A DNA stretch of 40,423 bases, from assembly GCA_947176585.1 (NCBI GenBank), contig CAMWRI010000004.1, positions 1 to 40,423 of the forward strand, given 5' to 3'. Both the position numbers and the translations under genes were made by a program. Shown in pieces: positions 2,417 through 9,557 of the stretch. Within the stretch, counting starts at the first letter, position 1. Each line of letters starts with the position of its first letter. The notes beneath the pieces were generated by a model. That model worked only from the letters and a program-made list of their open reading frames with translations, was not told the DNA's origin and ran no database searches. Source of the stretch: an uncultured Porphyromonadaceae bacterium. GTDB taxonomy: Bacteria; Bacteroidota; Bacteroidia; Bacteroidales; Muribaculaceae.

Positions 2417-2977
2417 ATGAAGAAATTACTTTTTATTGTCGTAGCTGTAGTGGCTGTTGCCGCACTTGCAGCCTGTCATGACGACGACGACAAATATGCC
2501 ACCACCTGGGAAAAGTATGCCGACTGGCGCGCTACCAACACCGCCTGGATAGCGTCGTTGCAGACGCGAACCAATGCCGACGGCACTCCGTTCTACAAGG
2601 TAGTAACTCCCTCGTGGTACAACGGTGCATATGTGCTGGTGCACGTTTTCGGCGAATCGAACACCGCGAACCTCCGTCCGCTTTCCACGAGCACCGTCGA
2701 TGTGATATATCAGGGCTTCAATTGCGAAGGCGAGCGCTTCGACTCGTCGCTCACCCAGACGGCTTATGGCCCCGGTGTAGCTCGCTTCGCTCTCAATGAG
2801 GTGATTGACGGCTGGACGGCTGCATTCGAGACTCTTCATGTGGGCGACAGCGCTGAGATCGTGTGCCCCTACAATATGGCCTACGGTGAAATGTATATGA
2901 GCGAGCTTATCAAGCCCTATTCGGCTCTGCGCTTCAACGTCAGGCTCGTCGACATCTACGGCTACGAGAAGAAATAA
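2417..2977 (+). CDS. FKBP-like peptidyl-prolyl isomerase lipoprotein
   Basis: 186 residues. The signal peptide ends in a lipobox (ALAAC, Cys about 20) followed by an acidic DDDD run, a feature associated with surface export of lipoproteins in Bacteroidota. The second half matches the FKBP fold: VIDGWTAAFETLHVGDSAEI, then a Pro-Tyr-containing loop with AYGE, and the closing strand SALRFNVRLVDI. In typical FKBPs this arrangement forms the prolyl isomerase site, so a periplasmic or outer-membrane folding role is likely. The strand before the active site (YQGFNCEGERFDSS) corresponds to the 'G.l.dG..FDsS' segment of FKBPs. Third gene of the glyS-lemA run. Catalytic activity is inferred from the family and not shown here. 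Confidence 0.85.
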   Translation: MKKLLFIVVAVVAVAALAACHDDDDKYATTWEKYADWRATNTAWIASLQTRTNADGTPFYKVVTPSWYNGAYVLVHVFGESNTANLRPLSTSTVDVIYQGFNCEGERFDSSLTQTAYGPGVARFALNEVIDGWTAAFETLHVGDSAEIVCPYNMAYGEMYMSELIKPYSALRFNVRLVDIYGYEKK

Positions 2978-2986
2978 CGTGCCGGA

Positions 2987-3017
2987 TTGCAGAGTTCGCA
3001 AATAATTGCTAACTTTG
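2987..3017 (+). promoter_or_regulatory. promoter of tRNA-Leu (-33 TTG, -7 TAACTTTG)
   Basis: TTG at 2987-2989 and TAACTTTG at 3010-3017 are separated by 20 bases, which fits the Bacteroidota primary promoter well. The tRNA begins 8 bases after the -7 box. This is one of the two best-formed promoters in the window. Confidence 0.8.
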
Positions 3018-3024
3018 CACCACT

Positions 3025-3108
3025 GCCCGAATGGTGAAATGGTAGACACGAGGGACTTAAAATCCCTTGACTATAGCAGTCGTGCGGGTTCGAGTCCCGC
3101 TTCGGGCA
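3025..3108 (+). tRNA. tRNA-Leu (anticodon TAA)
   Basis: Seven-pair acceptor stem GCCCGAA (3025-3031) with TTCGGGC (3101-3107), discriminator A at 3108. Anticodon stem AGGGA (3051-3055) with TCCCT (3063-3067) closes a 7-base loop, CTTAAAA, which places the anticodon TAA at 3058-3060. The long variable arm (about 3068-3083, GACT/AGTC pairing) is typical of class II tRNA-Leu. T arm is GCGGG/CCCGC around TTCGAGT (3084-3100). CCA is not encoded; the bases after the discriminator are CAA. Confidence 0.97.
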
Positions 3109-3151
3109 CAATATTCCCCAATCATTAAACCACCGGAATTCAATACCATAT

Positions 3152-4033
3152 ATGACAGCGGCCGACGACACCCTGCGTCTCAGACACGAAATGTGTATGC
3201 GCGTGGTCGATTATCAGGAGGCGCTGTCGCAATTGCTCACTGTGGTTGAGGACGATGATGGCCGCGTACATCGTTTTTATACCCGTGATGCCGGAATCAC
3301 ATTGTCTTTAATTGCCGATGATATCCGTCGCATGGCTGCCGCGTTGGGCGATCCTGGTATGGGCGCGTGGCTCGAAGCAGAGAAACGCAAGATGCTGGGC
3401 GAGACCGTAGCGCCTGCCGTTGCCGCTTCCGAAGCTGCTCCCCGCCGTGGTCGTGGCCGGAATGTTCTGTGGGGCATGGGAGCCGCAGGAGCTCTTCTTG
3501 TGGGGTGGCAGGCTTTGTCGTATGCCTCGTCGGGAGAGGAACGTGCACGCTTCGACGAAACAATGGCCACGGCAGAAGCTGCGCTGCACGACGGTGACTA
3601 TCAGGCGGCGCTGGGACATGCCGATTCGGCGGCCGGTGCTTATTCGGCAGCCTTTATGTCAGGCGTATACAAAGACAAGGCCCGTGCCGTGGCCAAGACA
3701 GCATCTGAGAGAATCCTGGAGGCGTGGCTTGCCGATGTGCGGCGCCATCTTGGCGCAGGACGCCCGGAGCTTGCAAAAGCCCGCACCCTGTCGCTTCCGG
3801 GCAATCTCGATCTCAGCAAGTCTTCCGCAGCTCTTTTTGCCGAGACGTGCCGTGAGATAGACGAGAGGTTGGCGCAGCGTTGTGAAGCTTTCGTGGAGGC
3901 CCTTATAGCAGATGCCTACAGCCATGGCGGCCAAATTTCCGGCCAGGCTCGACTCGAACTCGAGAGCATATTGGAAGTGGTGCCTGATAATTATTGGTTG
4001 AACTATTTCAAAAACAAGGTCGATGAAAAGTGA
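3152..4033 (+). CDS. unknown single-pass membrane protein, first gene of the Hxs cassette
   Basis: 293 residues, family not recognised. Residues 1-100 are soluble and mostly helical. A basic patch (PRRGRGR, about 98-103) precedes one membrane segment at about 104-124. By the positive-inside rule this places the N-terminus in the cytoplasm and residues 130-293 in the periplasm. The periplasmic part is Ala-rich and helical, with segments such as ALHDGDYQAALGHADSA that resemble TPR-like repeats without being convincing ones. The gene starts 43 bases after tRNA-Leu with no promoter box of its own in the gap, and its last 11 bases overlap hxsA, so it appears translationally coupled to it. That suggests a partner role in displaying or processing HxsA at the inner membrane; this is inference from position only. 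Confidence 0.8.
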   Translation: MTAADDTLRLRHEMCMRVVDYQEALSQLLTVVEDDDGRVHRFYTRDAGITLSLIADDIRRMAAALGDPGMGAWLEAEKRKMLGETVAPAVAASEAAPRRGRGRNVLWGMGAAGALLVGWQALSYASSGEERARFDETMATAEAALHDGDYQAALGHADSAAGAYSAAFMSGVYKDKARAVAKTASERILEAWLADVRRHLGAGRPELAKARTLSLPGNLDLSKSSAALFAETCREIDERLAQRCEAFVEALIADAYSHGGQISGQARLELESILEVVPDNYWLNYFKNKVDEK

Positions 4034-4868
4034 GCAGGCAAAGATAATCAAGTCGCTGCTCGTATCGGCCACACTCGCGTTGCTTCATTCACCGGCCGGC
4101 GCCGAGGAAGCACCCCGGGTGTCAGAAGGGGATGCCGGCTCGGGTAATATTATTCCCGGAGAAACCTGCGGACTGCGCATCGATAAAAACGTGTACAAGC
4201 TGATGCGCGACGGCGGCACCAAACTTATTGCCGCACATCGCTCTCATTCGTCCCACCGCTCTCACCGTTCTAGCCGTGCAGGCTGCTATTCTCGCACGTC
4301 GCGCCCGTCGAAGACGCGTACAGCCGCTCCGCAGGCACTTTATTCGCAGGACGCGCAGATGCCGCGAAAGCTGGGCGAGAGAGCGCTGGGGCAGGGAATG
4401 CGTGGCGCGGATGTGGACGAACTCGTGGCATATCTCGTGCGCTTCTATTATCTTCACGAAGAAGACGCGTCGCAGGCATCGGGAGAGAGTGAATATAATA
4501 GCAAGGTAGTTGATGCCGTGCGCCATTTTCAGCGCGATGCGGGATACGTGGCGGATGGTAAGTTCACTGCCGCTATGGCCGACAGGCTCAAGCAGTGGGA
4601 TGCTGCGCGCACCACTATCGTTCTCGGTTTCCGGCCGCTCGCCGTATCTGCCAAAATGTCGGGCTTCGATGTGGACACTCTGGTGGAACTGCTCATAGCA
4701 GCCGGATGCGCTCCTGACGGGGCCAAACTCACGAAGCAGGAGGGGCACTATGTCTTTACTGACGATATCCTTACAGCGCTGAAGGTGTTTCAGGCCACAC
4801 ACGGTCTGCGACCCACTGGTGACCTTGACGAAGCCACCGTGAAGAAACTCAACGGATTCAGGAAATGA
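4023..4868 (+). CDS. hxsA: His-Xaa-Ser repeat protein HxsA (predicted substrate)
   Basis: 281 residues. An N-terminal signal peptide (hydrophobic core about 9-25, likely cut after AGA at about 28) predicts Sec export. Residues 72-83 are four uninterrupted His-Xaa-Ser tripeptides, followed by a Ser/Arg-rich tail with Cys88 (SSRAGCYSRTSRP). Two peptidoglycan-binding-like modules follow, at about 117-192 (VVDAVRHFQRDAGYVADGK) and 196-281 (ILTALKVFQATHGLRPTGDL), both with the helical 'V..FQ...GL..dG' pattern. This layout, together with an adjoining HxsD and two radical-SAM genes, matches the His-Xaa-Ser system, in which HxsA is the presumed target of the radical-SAM pair. It overlaps the upstream gene by 11 bases and hxsD by 4 (ATGA). 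What the modification is, and whether it happens before export, cannot be told from sequence. Confidence 0.88.
   Translation: MKSEQAKIIKSLLVSATLALLHSPAGAEEAPRVSEGDAGSGNIIPGETCGLRIDKNVYKLMRDGGTKLIAAHRSHSSHRSHRSSRAGCYSRTSRPSKTRTAAPQALYSQDAQMPRKLGERALGQGMRGADVDELVAYLVRFYYLHEEDASQASGESEYNSKVVDAVRHFQRDAGYVADGKFTAAMADRLKQWDAARTTIVLGFRPLAVSAKMSGFDVDTLVELLIAAGCAPDGAKLTKQEGHYVFTDDILTALKVFQATHGLRPTGDLDEATVKKLNGFRK
4236..4271 (+). repeat. four tandem His-Xaa-Ser codon triplets within hxsA
   Basis: Encodes HRS-HSS-HRS-HRS (residues 72-83 of HxsA). The codons vary (His is CAT or CAC; Ser is TCT or TCG), so the repetition is conserved at the protein level rather than being a recent DNA slippage product. 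It is the presumed modification site. Confidence 0.9.
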
Positions 4869-5152
4869 AAGTGACAGTCGACCGCCGTATATATCCCGAA
4901 AGCGTCATTTCTAAGGCTGTGTACAGCCTCTGCGACCGATACAGCATCGCCCGCATGCTTGCAAGCGAGCACTTTGAGGAACTGGAGGCTCCGGGTGCCG
5001 GGCCAAGCTTCGAGGCAGACCTGTTGCAGGCTCTCAACGATTACAAACTGCGGCAGATCATCGCTGATGAAACGCGCGATGTGAAAACTATTCTATATGC
5101 CGCGGCTTTCGGCGGCGACGATACATTCTCAGCTGATGATGTCCAGGACTGA
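4865..5152 (+). CDS. hxsD: His-Xaa-Ser system protein HxsD
   Basis: 95 residues, small and helical, no signal peptide, so cytoplasmic. It carries the family hallmark around LQALNDYKLRQIIADETRD (about 55-72), corresponding to the 'LLNDYxLRE' signature by which HxsD was first named, followed by an AAAF helix. HxsD always accompanies the two radical-SAM genes in this system; its role is unknown, perhaps as a peptide-recognition or docking subunit comparable to RRE/PqqD-like partners (inference). The ATG overlaps the hxsA stop (ATGA at 4865-4868), and hxsB begins inside its 3' end, so all are translationally coupled. Confidence 0.87.
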   Translation: MKVTVDRRIYPESVISKAVYSLCDRYSIARMLASEHFEELEAPGAGPSFEADLLQALNDYKLRQIIADETRDVKTILYAAAFGGDDTFSADDVQD

Positions 5153-6551
5153 TCGCAATTATCATCTCTTGCCGTTCAACTTCGTGCGTCTCTGCGGCAG
5201 AGAAGTCCTCGTCAACGAACTGGGTGATATGATCGTTGCTCCGGCGGGTACGGTGGAGCGTATAGTGGAGCGGCGCATGGAAGACGATGGCCTGTATAAA
5301 TCACTGATGTCTAATTTCTTTATTTCCCGCGAAGCGATTCCGCCGCTCAGCGGTCTTTATGCGGCGCGCTTGCATGAGCGCAAAAGTTTTATTGACGCAG
5401 GTCCGGCGTTGCATATATTCGTCCTCACCTTGCGGTGCAACCAGAATTGCCGTTATTGCCATGCTTCGAGCCGAGTGATTGACAGCCCGGATTGCACGAT
5501 GAGTGTCACTGTGCTCGATCAGGCCGTTGCGCTTATGATGCAGTCGCCATCACGTGAAATCACGATGGAATTTCAGGGAGGCGAGCCTTCGCTTCTGCCT
5601 GAACTGATACGGCACGCCATACTCAGGGCCGACGAACTTAACCGTCGGGCATGCAAGACCATACATTATGTGCTGTGCACCAATTGCGTGAATTTGTCGC
5701 CCGGTTTGCTCGAATTGTGCGCGGAATACGGTGTAGTGATTTCCACCTCTCTCGACGGTCCCTGGTGGCTGCACAACGCCAACCGGGGCACATGCGACAG
5801 CCACGCCCGTGTAGTGGCAGGGATTGAAAAAGCCCGAGCGGCTGTGGGGCACGATAAGGTATCGGCGTTGATGACGGCGTCCCGGCTGTCGCTCGATTAT
5901 CCGCGCGAGATTGTGGATGAGTACCTGTGCCGTGGATTCAACTCTATTTTTCTGCGGGCTCTCAATCCCTATGGTCTCGCCGCCGACAACGCTGATTGGG
6001 CAGACTATACGGATCGTTTTGTGGAGTTCTACAAGCAGGCCCTGGAGTATATCATTGAGCTCAACAGGAGAGGAATATTCATCGTGGAGGAGTTCGCCTC
6101 CATCGTGCTTAAGAAGATTCTCACTCCCGGAGGGTCGGGGTTTGTGGACTTGCAGTCGCCGTCCGGAATCATCAACTCGGTGCTTGCCTATAACTACGAT
6201 GGCGGCGTGTATTGCTCCGACGAATCGAGAATGCTCGCCGAGCGGGGCGATGATTATTTCCGCCTTGGATGTACGGCCGACGGCTATGAAAGCATTGTTT
6301 ACGGACCGAGGGCAAAAAAAATAGCGCAAACCTGGGCGGCGGAGGCGCTGGCCGGTTGCAGCGACTGCGCCTTGAGACCATATTGCGGAGCCGACCCTGT
6401 GCGTGCCTATTCCACGCAGGGGAATGCCTACGGGCACCGACCCACATCGCTGCAATGCAGGAAGCATAAGGCCATTATCGAGCATCTCATCAGCCTTATC
6501 ATAGAGCGGGCCGACGAGGTACTTCCCATTTTCAGCAGTTGGACCGCATGA
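5136..6551 (+). CDS. hxsB: radical-SAM maturase HxsB
   Basis: About 471 residues. The N-terminal segment (YHLLPFNFVRLCGREVLVNELGD, read in parts) is typical of HxsB and precedes the radical-SAM core. The 4Fe-4S motif CX3CX2C is CNQNCRYC at about 101-108, followed by the SAM-binding EFQGGEPSL segment. The C-terminus has a SPASM-like cysteine cluster (Cys408, 411, 417 and 441 in CSDCALRPYC...LQC), which would bind auxiliary clusters, as in peptide-modifying radical-SAM enzymes. I chose the ATG at 5136 (a second ATG follows at 5139). The ATG at 5097 would add 13 residues lacking family character that read over hxsD codons. The stop overlaps hxsC by 4 bases. Predicted role: modify the HxS tract of HxsA with HxsC. 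Confidence 0.9.
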   Translation: MMSRTDRNYHLLPFNFVRLCGREVLVNELGDMIVAPAGTVERIVERRMEDDGLYKSLMSNFFISREAIPPLSGLYAARLHERKSFIDAGPALHIFVLTLRCNQNCRYCHASSRVIDSPDCTMSVTVLDQAVALMMQSPSREITMEFQGGEPSLLPELIRHAILRADELNRRACKTIHYVLCTNCVNLSPGLLELCAEYGVVISTSLDGPWWLHNANRGTCDSHARVVAGIEKARAAVGHDKVSALMTASRLSLDYPREIVDEYLCRGFNSIFLRALNPYGLAADNADWADYTDRFVEFYKQALEYIIELNRRGIFIVEEFASIVLKKILTPGGSGFVDLQSPSGIINSVLAYNYDGGVYCSDESRMLAERGDDYFRLGCTADGYESIVYGPRAKKIAQTWAAEALAGCSDCALRPYCGADPVRAYSTQGNAYGHRPTSLQCRKHKAIIEHLISLIIERADEVLPIFSSWTA

Positions 6552-7426
6552 TAAGGGATTTTGATATAAGCAGCAACGACAACACCCTGTATGCTACCGG
6601 CCGCTGCAGCAATCGCTGTGTCTTTTGCTGTGAGCCACCGGTGCAGCACGAAGACACCGAAGCGCTTTGGGCAGAGAATATGCTCGTTCTCCAACGTGCG
6701 CCCGACGGAGTTCCTGTGGTGGGAATATCCGGCGGCGAACCGGCGGTGCTGGGTGAGCGCCTGATTGAACTTTTGGAGATTGTGGGACGCCGCTTTCCGC
6801 GGGCAGATGTGCATCTGCTCACAAACGGCAGGGCTTTCAGCAATTTGTCGTATGCTCGCCGTGTAGTTCAGGCAACCCGTGGAAGACTCGTGGCGGGTGT
6901 GCCGCTGCACTCCGATTATTGCTGCGATCACGATATGATAGCGGGTGTGGCGGGAGCATTCGATGAAACCGTGGCCGGAATATGCAATCTCGCGGCTGCA
7001 GGTGCAGCCGTGGAGCTGCGGGTGGTGATAAACCGATACAATTATATGCGGCTACGCGACATCGCCCTGTTCATTCACCGCAATTTGCCCTTCGCTGCTC
7101 TCACAGCTTTTATGGCTATGGAGAGGGTGGGACTGGCCTCCGATAATGCCGCCGAAGTGTGGATAGAGCCATGCGATTATTCCGGATACTTGGCCGGGGC
7201 TGTAGATTTTCTTGATCAATGGCATCATCCTGTGGCCGTCTACAACGTGCCGTTGTGTCTGCTCAGCCCGGGCAGCCGGCGTTTTGCATGCCGCAGTATA
7301 AGCGACTGGAAGCAGCGTTTCGCTTCCGAATGCGACCGTTGCGAGCTCCGGGCAGAGTGCTGCGGCCTTTTTGCCACGAGCACCGAGCCTTTCAGAAATA
7401 TCCATGCAATATGTTCTTCGGCATAA
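6548..7426 (+). CDS. hxsC: radical-SAM maturase HxsC
   Basis: About 292 residues. Near the N-terminus YATGRC-SNRC-VFCCEPP gives the CX3CX2C cluster (Cys20, 24, 27) with an additional adjacent Cys28, followed by the Pro-Pro typical of HxsC. GISGGEPAVLG is the SAM-binding GGE motif. The C-terminus ends in a Cys-rich segment (ISDWKQRFASECDRCELRAECC) like that of other HxsC proteins, suggesting an auxiliary cluster. I chose the ATG at 6548 because it overlaps the hxsB stop as ATGA; an in-frame TTG nine bases upstream is less likely. Last gene of the cassette; a lipoprotein gene with its own promoter box follows. Only a weak 4-bp hairpin and a T run (about 7454-7473) could terminate it. Confidence 0.9.
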   Translation: MIRDFDISSNDNTLYATGRCSNRCVFCCEPPVQHEDTEALWAENMLVLQRAPDGVPVVGISGGEPAVLGERLIELLEIVGRRFPRADVHLLTNGRAFSNLSYARRVVQATRGRLVAGVPLHSDYCCDHDMIAGVAGAFDETVAGICNLAAAGAAVELRVVINRYNYMRLRDIALFIHRNLPFAALTAFMAMERVGLASDNAAEVWIEPCDYSGYLAGAVDFLDQWHHPVAVYNVPLCLLSPGSRRFACRSISDWKQRFASECDRCELRAECCGLFATSTEPFRNIHAICSSA

Positions 7427-7474
7427 AATGCAATTTAGTGGCGTTCGGAGAAAGCACGGGTGCGGTTTTTTTGT

Positions 7475-7482
7475 TAATTTTG
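7475..7482 (+). promoter_or_regulatory. -7 promoter box before the lipoprotein gene
   Basis: TAATTTTG fits TAnnTTTG and lies 26 bases before the next ATG. No -33 TTG at the right spacing. It separates the downstream genes from the Hxs cassette. Confidence 0.55.
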
Positions 7483-7507
7483 CGGCATAAATGAAAAAAT
7501 ATATCTT

Positions 7508-8308
7508 ATGATTAAGAAAGAGACCATACTGAACCTGGCTGCCGCATTTGCCTTGGTGGCTACGGTTGCCTCCTGCGGTGGAAATAAGGAAGCTGAAGTG
7601 CTTCAGAAACAAGCTGCCCGCGTCAATGCGGAGCTCGCAGAGGAAGTGAAGGAAGCGCCCTCATTGCTGGCCGAGGCTTCGGCTGTGTATGCCGATTCTG
7701 CATTCAATGTCAATGTGGTGTTTGCCGACTCCGTGATGCATGTGAGCGACTATTCGCAGACTCTCGTGGAATATTTCCTGGCCGACGAAATAAAGAGTTC
7801 CGCCGGTAAGGACCTGGACGAACTGGTGAACTCTCTGGCGAAGACCAAAGAACCCATGCGTCTTACGCTCACCGATGTGTACGGCACCACCCGCAGCTAC
7901 GATCTGCCGGCTGCCACGCTGCGCACGCTGTTCAAGACCAAGCGCTCGCAGCTGCAACTGCCGGAGGTGCGTTCGGAGGTGCTTGCTATTTTCGCAGGCC
8001 GCAGCTTCGGCTTCGGAGTGGGTGCGGGAGTTCAGAAGGTGGATTTCGCGCTGTCCACCAGCTTTGCAACCTACACAGTGATCTACGACAGCCCCAAGGC
8101 CTACAGCGGCTTGAACGTGGCTAATGTGAAGGCCCGCTATCTCAAGTTGCTCAAGCCCATCTACAAGGCCTACGGCCCCATTGCGGATGAAATCGTGGAA
8201 ATGAACGAAAGCCTGGGTATCGACGGCTATCGCTTCGTGCTTACCACGCCTTCGGGCGATTCCGAGCTCAAGGCCACTCTGCCCTGGCGCGAGATTCTTA
8301 AAGATTAA
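7508..8308 (+). CDS. hypothetical lipoprotein
   Basis: 266 residues. The signal peptide has a lipobox (TVASCGG, Cys about 23), so the mature protein is lipid-anchored in the periplasm or outer membrane. A helical, Ala/Glu-rich stretch (about 30-60) is followed by an alpha/beta domain I do not recognise (for example MRLTLTDVYGTTRSYDLPAATLRTLF, read in parts). No catalytic motif or metal site is apparent. It has its own promoter box and lies 25 bases before pepT without another promoter, so the two may be cotranscribed. The reading is a convincing gene by length, signal peptide and codon use, but the function is unknown. Confidence 0.8.
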   Translation: MIKKETILNLAAAFALVATVASCGGNKEAEVLQKQAARVNAELAEEVKEAPSLLAEASAVYADSAFNVNVVFADSVMHVSDYSQTLVEYFLADEIKSSAGKDLDELVNSLAKTKEPMRLTLTDVYGTTRSYDLPAATLRTLFKTKRSQLQLPEVRSEVLAIFAGRSFGFGVGAGVQKVDFALSTSFATYTVIYDSPKAYSGLNVANVKARYLKLLKPIYKAYGPIADEIVEMNESLGIDGYRFVLTTPSGDSELKATLPWREILKD

Positions 8309-8333
8309 AAACATTTATCTTACATACTAAGCC

Positions 8334-9557
8334 ATGAATATAGTCGACAGATTTCTCGATTATGTGAAATTCGACACTCAGAGCGACGAGCTCACAAACC
8401 TCACGCCTTCCACTCCCGGGCAAATGAAATTTGCCAAGCACCTGCGGGATATTCTCGAGGAAATGGGACTGGATGATATCACTCTTGACGAGAACGGCTA
8501 CCTGATGGCCACTCTGCCCGGCAATATCACCGACCGCAAGGTGCCCACGATAGGATTTATTGCCCACCTCGACACGTCGCCCGATATGAGTGGCCACAAT
8601 GTGAAGCCCCGTATCGTGCACGACTACGAAGGCAATACCATAACTCTCAATGAGAAACTGGGTATCGTGCTTTCGCCCGACGAGTTCCCCGAATTGCTCA
8701 ACTATCGAGGTGAGGATCTCATCGTCACCGACGGCACAACCCTCCTTGGGGCCGACGATAAGGCAGGTATCGCCGAGATCGTGAGCGCAGTGGCATATCT
8801 CCAGCAGCATCCCGAGGTGAAGCACGGCGACATCCGTATTGCTTTCAATCCCGACGAAGAAATAGGGCAAGGTGCCCACAAGTTTGATGTGGAGCGCTTC
8901 GGTGCCGAATGGGCCTACACTATGGACGGCGGCGAGATAGGCGAGCTGGAATACGAAAACTTCAATGCCGCGGTGGCGAAGGTGACTTTCCGCGGTCGCA
9001 ACGTGCACCCCGGATATGCCAAGCACAAGATGATCAACTCGATGCGCATCGCCAATCAGTTCATCATAATGTTGCCGCGCTGGGAGACGCCCGAGCACAC
9101 CGAGGACTACGAGGGATTCTACCATCTCGTGGGAATGAACGGCTCGGTGGAGGAAACCGTGCTCACATACATAATACGCGACCACGACCGCGACCGCTTC
9201 GAGCGCCGCAAGAAGGAGCTTGAGCACCTCAGCCGCAAGATCAATAACGAGTTCCCCGGTTGCTGCTCCATCGATATCAAGGACCAGTACTACAACATGC
9301 GCGAGAAGATTGAGCCGCTGATGTATATCATCGAAATCGCCGAAGAGGCCATGCGCCGCTGCGACGTCACTCCCAAGGTGCAGCCCATCCGCGGTGGCAC
9401 CGATGGTGCGCAGCTCTCGTTCAAGGGACTGCCTTGCCCCAATATCTTTGCAGGCGGACTCAACTTCCACGGGCGATATGAATTCGTGCCCATCCGCTCC
9501 ATGGAGAAAGCTATGGAGGTGATCGTGGAGATTGCCCGCCTCGTGGGCGAACGCTGA
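8334..9557 (+). CDS. pepT: peptidase T (tripeptide aminopeptidase, M20B)
   Basis: 407 residues, the usual PepT length. Cuts the N-terminal residue from tripeptides in the cytoplasm using two zinc ions. The metal and catalytic motifs are in place: HLDTSPD (His ligand and Asp), GADDKAG (bridging Asp), NPDEEIGQG (general base Glu and ligand Glu), [10 protein letters not shown], and the C-terminal [19 protein letters not shown] segment with the last His in [10 protein letters not shown]. The start ([17 protein letters not shown]) matches the family. Its stop overlaps the miaA start by one base (TGATG), implying translational coupling. No oddities seen. Confidence 0.97.

Follow-up and report, generated by a model that had tools for sequence, protein, structure and literature searches.

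The His-Xaa-Ser (Hxs) system, covered by the protein families TIGR03976–TIGR03979, was reportedly defined by Haft and Basu in 2011. Two of its proteins, HxsB and HxsC, are named as putative maturases in the accessible passages of one paper, which also mention an unrelated cluster with a His-Xaa-Ser motif (PMC9062424), and hxsABCD stand among the genes listed for a genome in an excerpt of another (PMC8446631); the term Hxs does not occur in the available portion of a third (PMC10352776). Hxs enzymes are found in many phyla, on plasmids and in some phages, yet no paper naming an Hxs product was found in the open-licence literature searched.

Here we describe an Hxs cassette at positions 3152–7426 of a 40,423-nucleotide stretch of DNA (the window: positions 1 to 40,423 of contig CAMWRI010000004.1, assembly GCA_947176585.1) from an uncultured Porphyromonadaceae bacterium of the Muribaculaceae, Bacteroidales. 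A preliminary description of this locus had proposed such a cassette and regarded its product as not firmly established. The cassette is taken as an ordinary member of the known system, which it matches by HxsB, HxsC and HxsD proteins scoring over their family cut-offs and by a gene with tandem HxS tripeptides directly before hxsD. It differs in three features: an HxsA that stays below its cut-off and contains two wall-binding stretches, an HxsC without the N-terminal extension, and an additional membrane-protein gene, g5, in first position. The Hxs system itself is known and annotated; what is new is a Bacteroidales-centred variant with g5, a double wall-binding HxsA, a short HxsC and a TerY-type gene triad in relatives, a combination not found in the open-licence literature searched. 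The preliminary description did not include the non-Hxs nature of the first gene, the shortness of HxsC or the TerY-type operon. The locus is probably a wall-binding variant of the Hxs system, in which HxsB and HxsC would modify the HxS tract, HxsA would be exported and bound to the wall, and g5 would serve as its membrane partner. Genes, motifs, family scores, conservation and selection were computed, and from them we infer activity, modification, export, wall binding, topology and partnership.

Cassette genes and the Hxs enzymes

The region contains five open reading frames (ORFs) on the + strand, with small overlaps throughout: g5 (3152–4033; 293 aa, a predicted single-pass membrane protein), the hxsA-like substrate gene (4023–4868; 281 aa), hxsD (4865–5152; 95 aa), hxsB (5139–6551; 470 aa, starting at 5139 or 5136) and hxsC (6539–7426, starting at TTG 6539 or ATG 6548). 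Consecutive genes overlap by 11, 4, 14 and 13 bases, and the alternative starts of hxsB and hxsC (5136 and ATG 6548) turn the last two overlaps into 17 and 4 bases, so that the contiguous arrangement with overlaps of 4–17 bases reported earlier is borne out, depending on the start codons. No internal stop codon is present in any of the five genes. The earlier assignment of the whole set to an Hxs cassette holds for four genes; the first is a non-Hxs gene.

Families were assigned with hmmscan against NCBIfam using curated cut-offs, with Pfam alongside and hxsB searched as the ORF from 5097. The best models were TIGR03978 for HxsB (513.3 bits, cut-off 370), TIGR03977 for HxsC (295.3 bits, cut-off 267.9) and TIGR03976 for HxsD (52.7 bits, cut-off 50); a best match of either enzyme to an unrelated radical S-adenosylmethionine (SAM) family, named earlier as an outcome that would speak against the cassette, was thus not found. 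Pfam places Radical_SAM in both HxsB and HxsC. Each enzyme has one motif for the SAM-binding 4Fe-4S cluster (CNQNCRYC in HxsB, CSNRCVFCC in HxsC) and one further four-Cys site, which in HxsB is C-terminal; these motifs, like the LNDYKLR of HxsD, are present in the translations as first described.

Relatives were collected by searching genome contigs with a seven-sequence HxsB alignment, which gave at least 533 relatives in 590 stretches. We retained the best 80; together with 13 of 15 viral loci (the weak L131 and L132 were dropped), they form a set of 93 loci. Across these, Cys100/104/107 of HxsB are kept in 93 of 94 rows, the remaining row having a gap, and Cys407/410/416/440 in all 94; Cys20/24/27/237/262/265/271 of HxsC (numbered from ATG 6548) are kept in 93 of 93 rows. 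The second Cys clusters of the preliminary description are thereby confirmed, and are invariant or nearly so. HxsC is found in 92 of the 93 loci, the sole miss (L111) ending soon after hxsB, and HxsD in 86, four of the seven misses (L047, L048, L084 and L128) beginning at hxsB.

In the HxsC proteins of L038–L056 and the window (20 rows) the SAM motif starts about 15–35 residues in, whereas in the other 73 it lies at residue 89 or beyond, behind an N-terminal extension that the window clade does not have. We attribute the apparently later motif in L055 (residue 61) and L056 (residue 80) to ORF starts set mechanically within hxsB. In a 94-row HxsB tree, built by a quick method without bootstrap, the 20 short-HxsC rows form one side of a branch with a Shimodaira–Hasegawa-like approximate likelihood ratio test value (SH-aLRT) of 100, and an 11-row subclade that includes the window has a support of 99.

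When compared with the sequences of solved structures, HxsB matched five chains (best 6.2e-07), HxsC and HxsA matched none, and the HxsD profile gave nothing below E 0.02. The radical SAM core of HxsB is common to PapB, the anaerobic sulfatase maturase, GrrM/OscB and the YhhB cyclophane formers, on whose models it scores 89.9, 62.2, 50.8 and 56.6 bits, far below the respective cut-offs of 340, 349.45, 310 and 445. The lower-scoring models, among them those of a ranthipeptide maturase, of the anaerobic sulfatase maturase and of cyclophane formers, suggest a crosslink or an oxidation, without choosing between them; the anaerobic sulfatase maturase oxidises Ser or Cys. Prokaryotic viperin was considered from PADLOC model scores (41.7 bits for HxsB, 17 bits for HxsC) and rejected, these being attributed to the radical SAM core that the proteins have in common.

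HxsD, a small protein with a β-α-β-β-α order, has an AlphaFold 2 model (predicted local distance difference test score, pLDDT, 90.5) that corresponds to a small α/β protein. The recognition element (RRE) of ribosomally synthesized and post-translationally modified peptides (RiPPs) is a winged-helix fold; RRE proteins are not named among the fold-match rows shown for HxsD, and an RRE identity is neither supported nor contradicted. HxsD is taken as a putative substrate helper. Two HxsD-like genes lie ahead of hxsB in L066, L067, L068 and L119.

Relative to the sister locus L056, which has the same flanks, the ratio of nonsynonymous to synonymous substitution rates (dN/dS) is 0.118–0.197 for all five cassette genes and 0.037–0.060 for four flanking genes, the ratios being rough because dS is 0.8–1.7, which for the cassette is close to saturation. 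The cassette genes evolve faster than those flanking them, yet are clearly constrained by purifying selection.

The substrate protein HxsA and the membrane protein g5

HxsA begins with a hydrophobic, export-signal-like stretch (aa 8–26, by hydropathy), followed by the HxS tract, HRSHSSHRSHRS, at residues 72–83 (4236–4271, + strand), and ends in two stretches that match Pfam PG_binding_1 (57.6 bits). The four tandem HxS tripeptides seen earlier are thus present, and (HxS)4 arose in none of 100,000 composition shuffles of the protein. The search against TIGR03976–TIGR03979 proposed in the preliminary description, which bore out the other three proteins, did not do so for HxsA: its TIGR03979 score of 26.7 bits is far below the cut-off of 121.65, and the sister protein (41.4 bits) is below it too. 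The window protein is therefore filed as an HxsA-like substrate outside TIGR03979 membership. It also remains below the cut-offs of HxsA2 (NF038296; 23.8 of 48 bits) and HxsA3 (NF038309; 23.8 of 65 bits), and has no match to HxsA4 (NF038313) at E ≤ 1. These three families share with it a tandem HxS behind an export-signal-like N-terminus at a similar position; as short forms they stop near the tract, whereas the window protein runs on into its wall-binding domains.

Of the 93 fetched hxsB loci, 85 contain an ORF on the + strand with tandem HxS and three or more HxS altogether, which answers the earlier concern that orthologues might have no such tract. Six of the eight exceptions (L038, L047, L048, L082, L084 and L128) are cut at the locus edge beside the genes; L051 has the upstream ORF without a tract, and the absence from L115 is unexplained. 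The 94 tandem-HxS ORFs divide into 38 long forms, in which the tract is followed by more than 20 residues, and 56 short forms, which end at the tract or within 20 residues of it. Within HxsA, conservation is highest in the tract. Among 39 long forms (the 38 and the window) there is no variation at H72, S74, H75, S77, H78 and S80, and in 40 short forms six tract columns are invariant, with His and Ser alternating in the HxS register. PG_binding_1 is found in 30 of the 39 long forms and in none of the 40 short forms scanned, 16 of the 56 having been left out. The L105 protein, which passes TIGR03979 (140.5 bits, model positions 23–189 of 190), is itself a long form with a wall-binding-like C-terminus, and a wall-binding HxsA is therefore not new; what sets the window protein apart is the pair of wall-binding stretches together with the low TIGR03979 score. 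In L041, L042 and L043 two adjacent tandem-HxS substrate genes precede hxsD, one long and one short in L042.

The g5 protein belongs to no NCBIfam family and to no Pfam family above cut-off, and has no match in the plasmid collection. Its model shows an N-terminal α-β-β-α-α domain (aa 1–82), a low-confidence segment (85–125) and a helical, tetratricopeptide repeat (TPR)-like C-terminal part (about 130–292). The most hydrophobic 19-residue stretch is aa 105–123, with four Arg and two acidic residues before it and two basic and five acidic residues after it, a charge pattern that favours an N-inside orientation with the helical part outside.

Homologues of g5 lie directly before hxsA in eight of the 93 loci (L039–L045 and L056), all inside the 11-row subclade. 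Counting the window, this amounts to nine of the 11 rows, and the other two are cut by the contig end, the sequence of L038 starting inside hxsA and that of L048, a Duncaniella muris record, inside hxsB. In L039, L040, L042 and L043 the protein is 561–567 aa long and has, relative to the window protein, an extra N-terminal domain of some 95 aa and, by our own reading of the alignment, three α-β-β-α-α copies; in L044 and L045 this N-terminal domain is accompanied by a single copy.

Proposed mechanism, and a TerY-type operon in relatives

In the probable mechanism, HxsB and HxsC, with HxsD as helper, would act in the cytoplasm on the HxS tract of HxsA. Long and short forms both conserve His and Ser with a period of three residues, which makes His and/or Ser the most likely targets; the change would be repeated at these invariant positions, as a side-chain crosslink or an oxidation, leaving the middle residue free. 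The N-terminal signal of HxsA would then direct its export, and the two wall-binding domains would anchor it to the peptidoglycan, displaying the modified tract in the periplasm. The membrane protein g5 would partner HxsA and connect it to the cell, its helical domain facing outward and its small domain lying on the inner side. A substrate that ends in wall-binding domains, together with a fixed membrane partner, gives the modification a testable place (the periplasm and the peptidoglycan) and a testable partner.

Several points weigh against this mechanism. The chemistry of the modification is not readable from sequence, the window tract is only four HxS long, and HxsA scores far under the TIGR03979 cut-off. 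PG-binding domains are usual in long-form HxsA and hence no proof of a special role. The HxsA signal peptide and the g5 topology are based on hydropathy only. The g5 protein is without functional annotation; its folding model was built from eight sequences (that of the sister, which contains unknown letters, was excluded from the alignment), and a fold search gave no standout match, only common helical look-alikes. The HxsD model obtained no Foldseek match at E ≤ 0.001.

In relatives, an operon of another kind stands upstream of the cassette. The genes before g5 in L039, the locus in which Pfam domains were checked, encode TerY_C (PF15616; 42.3 of 28.4 bits), Pkinase (52.2 of 31.7), VWA (47.0 of 23.8) and PP2C_2 (98.9 of 24), a set we take to be the TerY-P triad; the other loci were assigned by homologue. 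Over the 93 loci, TerY_C homologues occur in four, kinase in five, vWA in five and PP2C in six, all inside the 11-row subclade. All four genes are upstream of the cassette in L039, L042, L044 and L045, and part of them in L043 and L040 (in L040 PP2C only, at a contig end), so that all six subclade members with sequence upstream of g5, the window and L056 excepted, carry at least PP2C. Beside the cassettes of the window and L056 there are no triad genes. In L044 and L045 another gene lies between PP2C and g5. The N-terminal domain of the relatives' g5 recurs in other proteins of the triad operons; in whole genomes it is found twice in G194, twice in G167 and three times in G090, and has no match in G000 or G203. 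The triad vWA matches in G194 and G167 and not in G000, G203 or G090; in the window genome (90% complete) no vWA homologue was found, the control genomes G194 and G167 being matched, and the blanks of G203, only 71% complete, are weak. The loci L042, L043 and L048 are apparently those of G194, G167 and G090, and L056 that of G203, and are not independent of the genome searches.

Among 198 genomes of the family, eight have the triad vWA (E ≤ 1e-60), six of them without HxsC over cut-off. In the four of these six whose neighbourhood was inspected there is no tandem-HxS ORF of at least 90 aa (shorter ORFs are not listed and one contig is below 5 kb), and in one of the four a CX3CX2C protein lies beside PP2C. 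The triad gives the impression of a platform whose cargo varies, Hxs being one example. In L184, L186 and L187, operons with TerY_C-, kinase-, vWA- and PP2C-like genes have other neighbours, and their ORF listings contain no Hxs genes; vWA was identified there by homology search and the remaining genes by visual inspection of the sequences.

This association raises the possibility, which we hold tentatively and which is compatible with the wall-binding mechanism, that the cassette serves a TerY-type operon for envelope or stress signalling as one of its output modules and that the window has a working, stripped-down form of it. The triad genes of the six clade members and the extra g5 domain, which the window g5 is without and which is matched or unmatched together with vWA in G194 and G167 and in G000 and G203, respectively, argue for such a module; the missing vWA homologue in the window genome, the six triad-bearing genomes without HxsC, the lack of any triad gene in the fetched stretches (some of them short) of nine short-HxsC loci outside the subclade, and G090, with cassette and g5 domain and no vWA match, argue against it. 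A more elaborate and rather doubtful version makes the Hxs cassette of this Bacteroidales clade the envelope arm of phospho-signalling: modified, wall-bound HxsA would be read via g5, whose cytoplasmic adaptor domain would pass the state to vWA, kinase and PP2C, and the window would represent a stand-alone version without triad and adaptor domain. In either case the triad-linked relatives offer a testable regulatory context for the modification.

Two further explanations concern the product itself. A small substrate gene next to two radical SAM enzymes that modify peptides is the pattern of a RiPP, 56 of the 94 tandem-HxS ORFs end at or just after the tract, and mobile elements carry the system (it is on 464 of 72,556 plasmid records); HxsA might thus be a precursor from which the modified tract is excised and secreted as a small peptide, for example an antimicrobial or a signal. 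In the window form, however, the tract is followed by some 200 residues that include two wall-binding domains, and the ORF listings of the window and the printed loci contain no obvious dedicated peptidase or peptide exporter (no family search was made), so that we consider a released peptide unlikely here. Decay of the cassette, which would then make nothing in this organism, is very improbable: the short tract, the g5 shorter than that of most relatives, the short HxsC and the patchy presence (two of 49 genomes of the genus) would fit it, but stop codons are absent, dN/dS is 0.12–0.20 in all five genes and all cluster cysteines are kept.

Distribution, genomic setting and transcription

The best 80 HxsB relatives span Bacteroidota, Pseudomonadota, Cyanobacteriota, Spirochaetota and other phyla. 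Within the genus, HxsB was found at E ≤ 1e-60 only in the window genome and G203; within the family, HxsC is over cut-off in seven of 198 genomes, three of which (G023, G040 and G165) have another type, in which HxsA is short and HxsC longer. Of the 464 plasmid records with hxsB kin, 320 are from Klebsiella and 338 are predicted conjugative; kin were also found in three of 50,697 phages, including a Leptospira phage, and the 15 viral-contig loci obtained with the HxsB alignment reach at best 46% identity. The HxsC query gave no relative among the viral contigs. As a system, Hxs travels on mobile elements. A prophage or plasmid origin of the window copy was rejected, as plasmid and phage hxsB kin are all less than 60% identical and nothing close was seen. 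A homologue of the DNA/RNA non-specific endonuclease of L045 lies near hxsB in nine of the 93 loci (L044, L045, L046, L064, L077, L079, L096, L102 and L130).

The cassette lies at the junction of two blocks, 2417–3109 and 7508–9557. Upstream are a gene for an FKBP-type protein and tRNA-Leu (TAA) (3025–3109, + strand), the only Rfam match, whose 3' end is 42 bases ahead of g5; further upstream are presumably LemA and glycyl-tRNA synthetase genes, and downstream is a lipoprotein gene (7508). In G190 and G225, which have no hxsB, the order glycyl-tRNA synthetase–LemA–FKBP–tRNA-Leu is followed by another block, containing what is presumably a YifB-like gene, and the lipoprotein gene is on a separate draft contig; no clean empty site was obtained in these two genomes. 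In L057, L058 and L064 a gene for a large membrane protein and another that we take to be MBOAT-like follow hxsC; the membrane protein also matches in L039 and L070.

A promoter and terminator scan covered the sigma-70-type consensus only, and nothing from it was used. The motif TAnnTTTG, which we take to be the Bacteroidales -7-like element, occurs 29 times on both strands of the window against 12.2 expected from shuffles, that is, 2.4 times more frequently. On the + strand of 2980–7520 it is present at just two sites, 3010, which lies upstream of tRNA-Leu, and 7475, ahead of the lipoprotein gene; the sister locus has the same pattern, at 4884 and 9361. It is a reasonable inference that the cassette is transcribed by read-through from the tRNA-Leu promoter.

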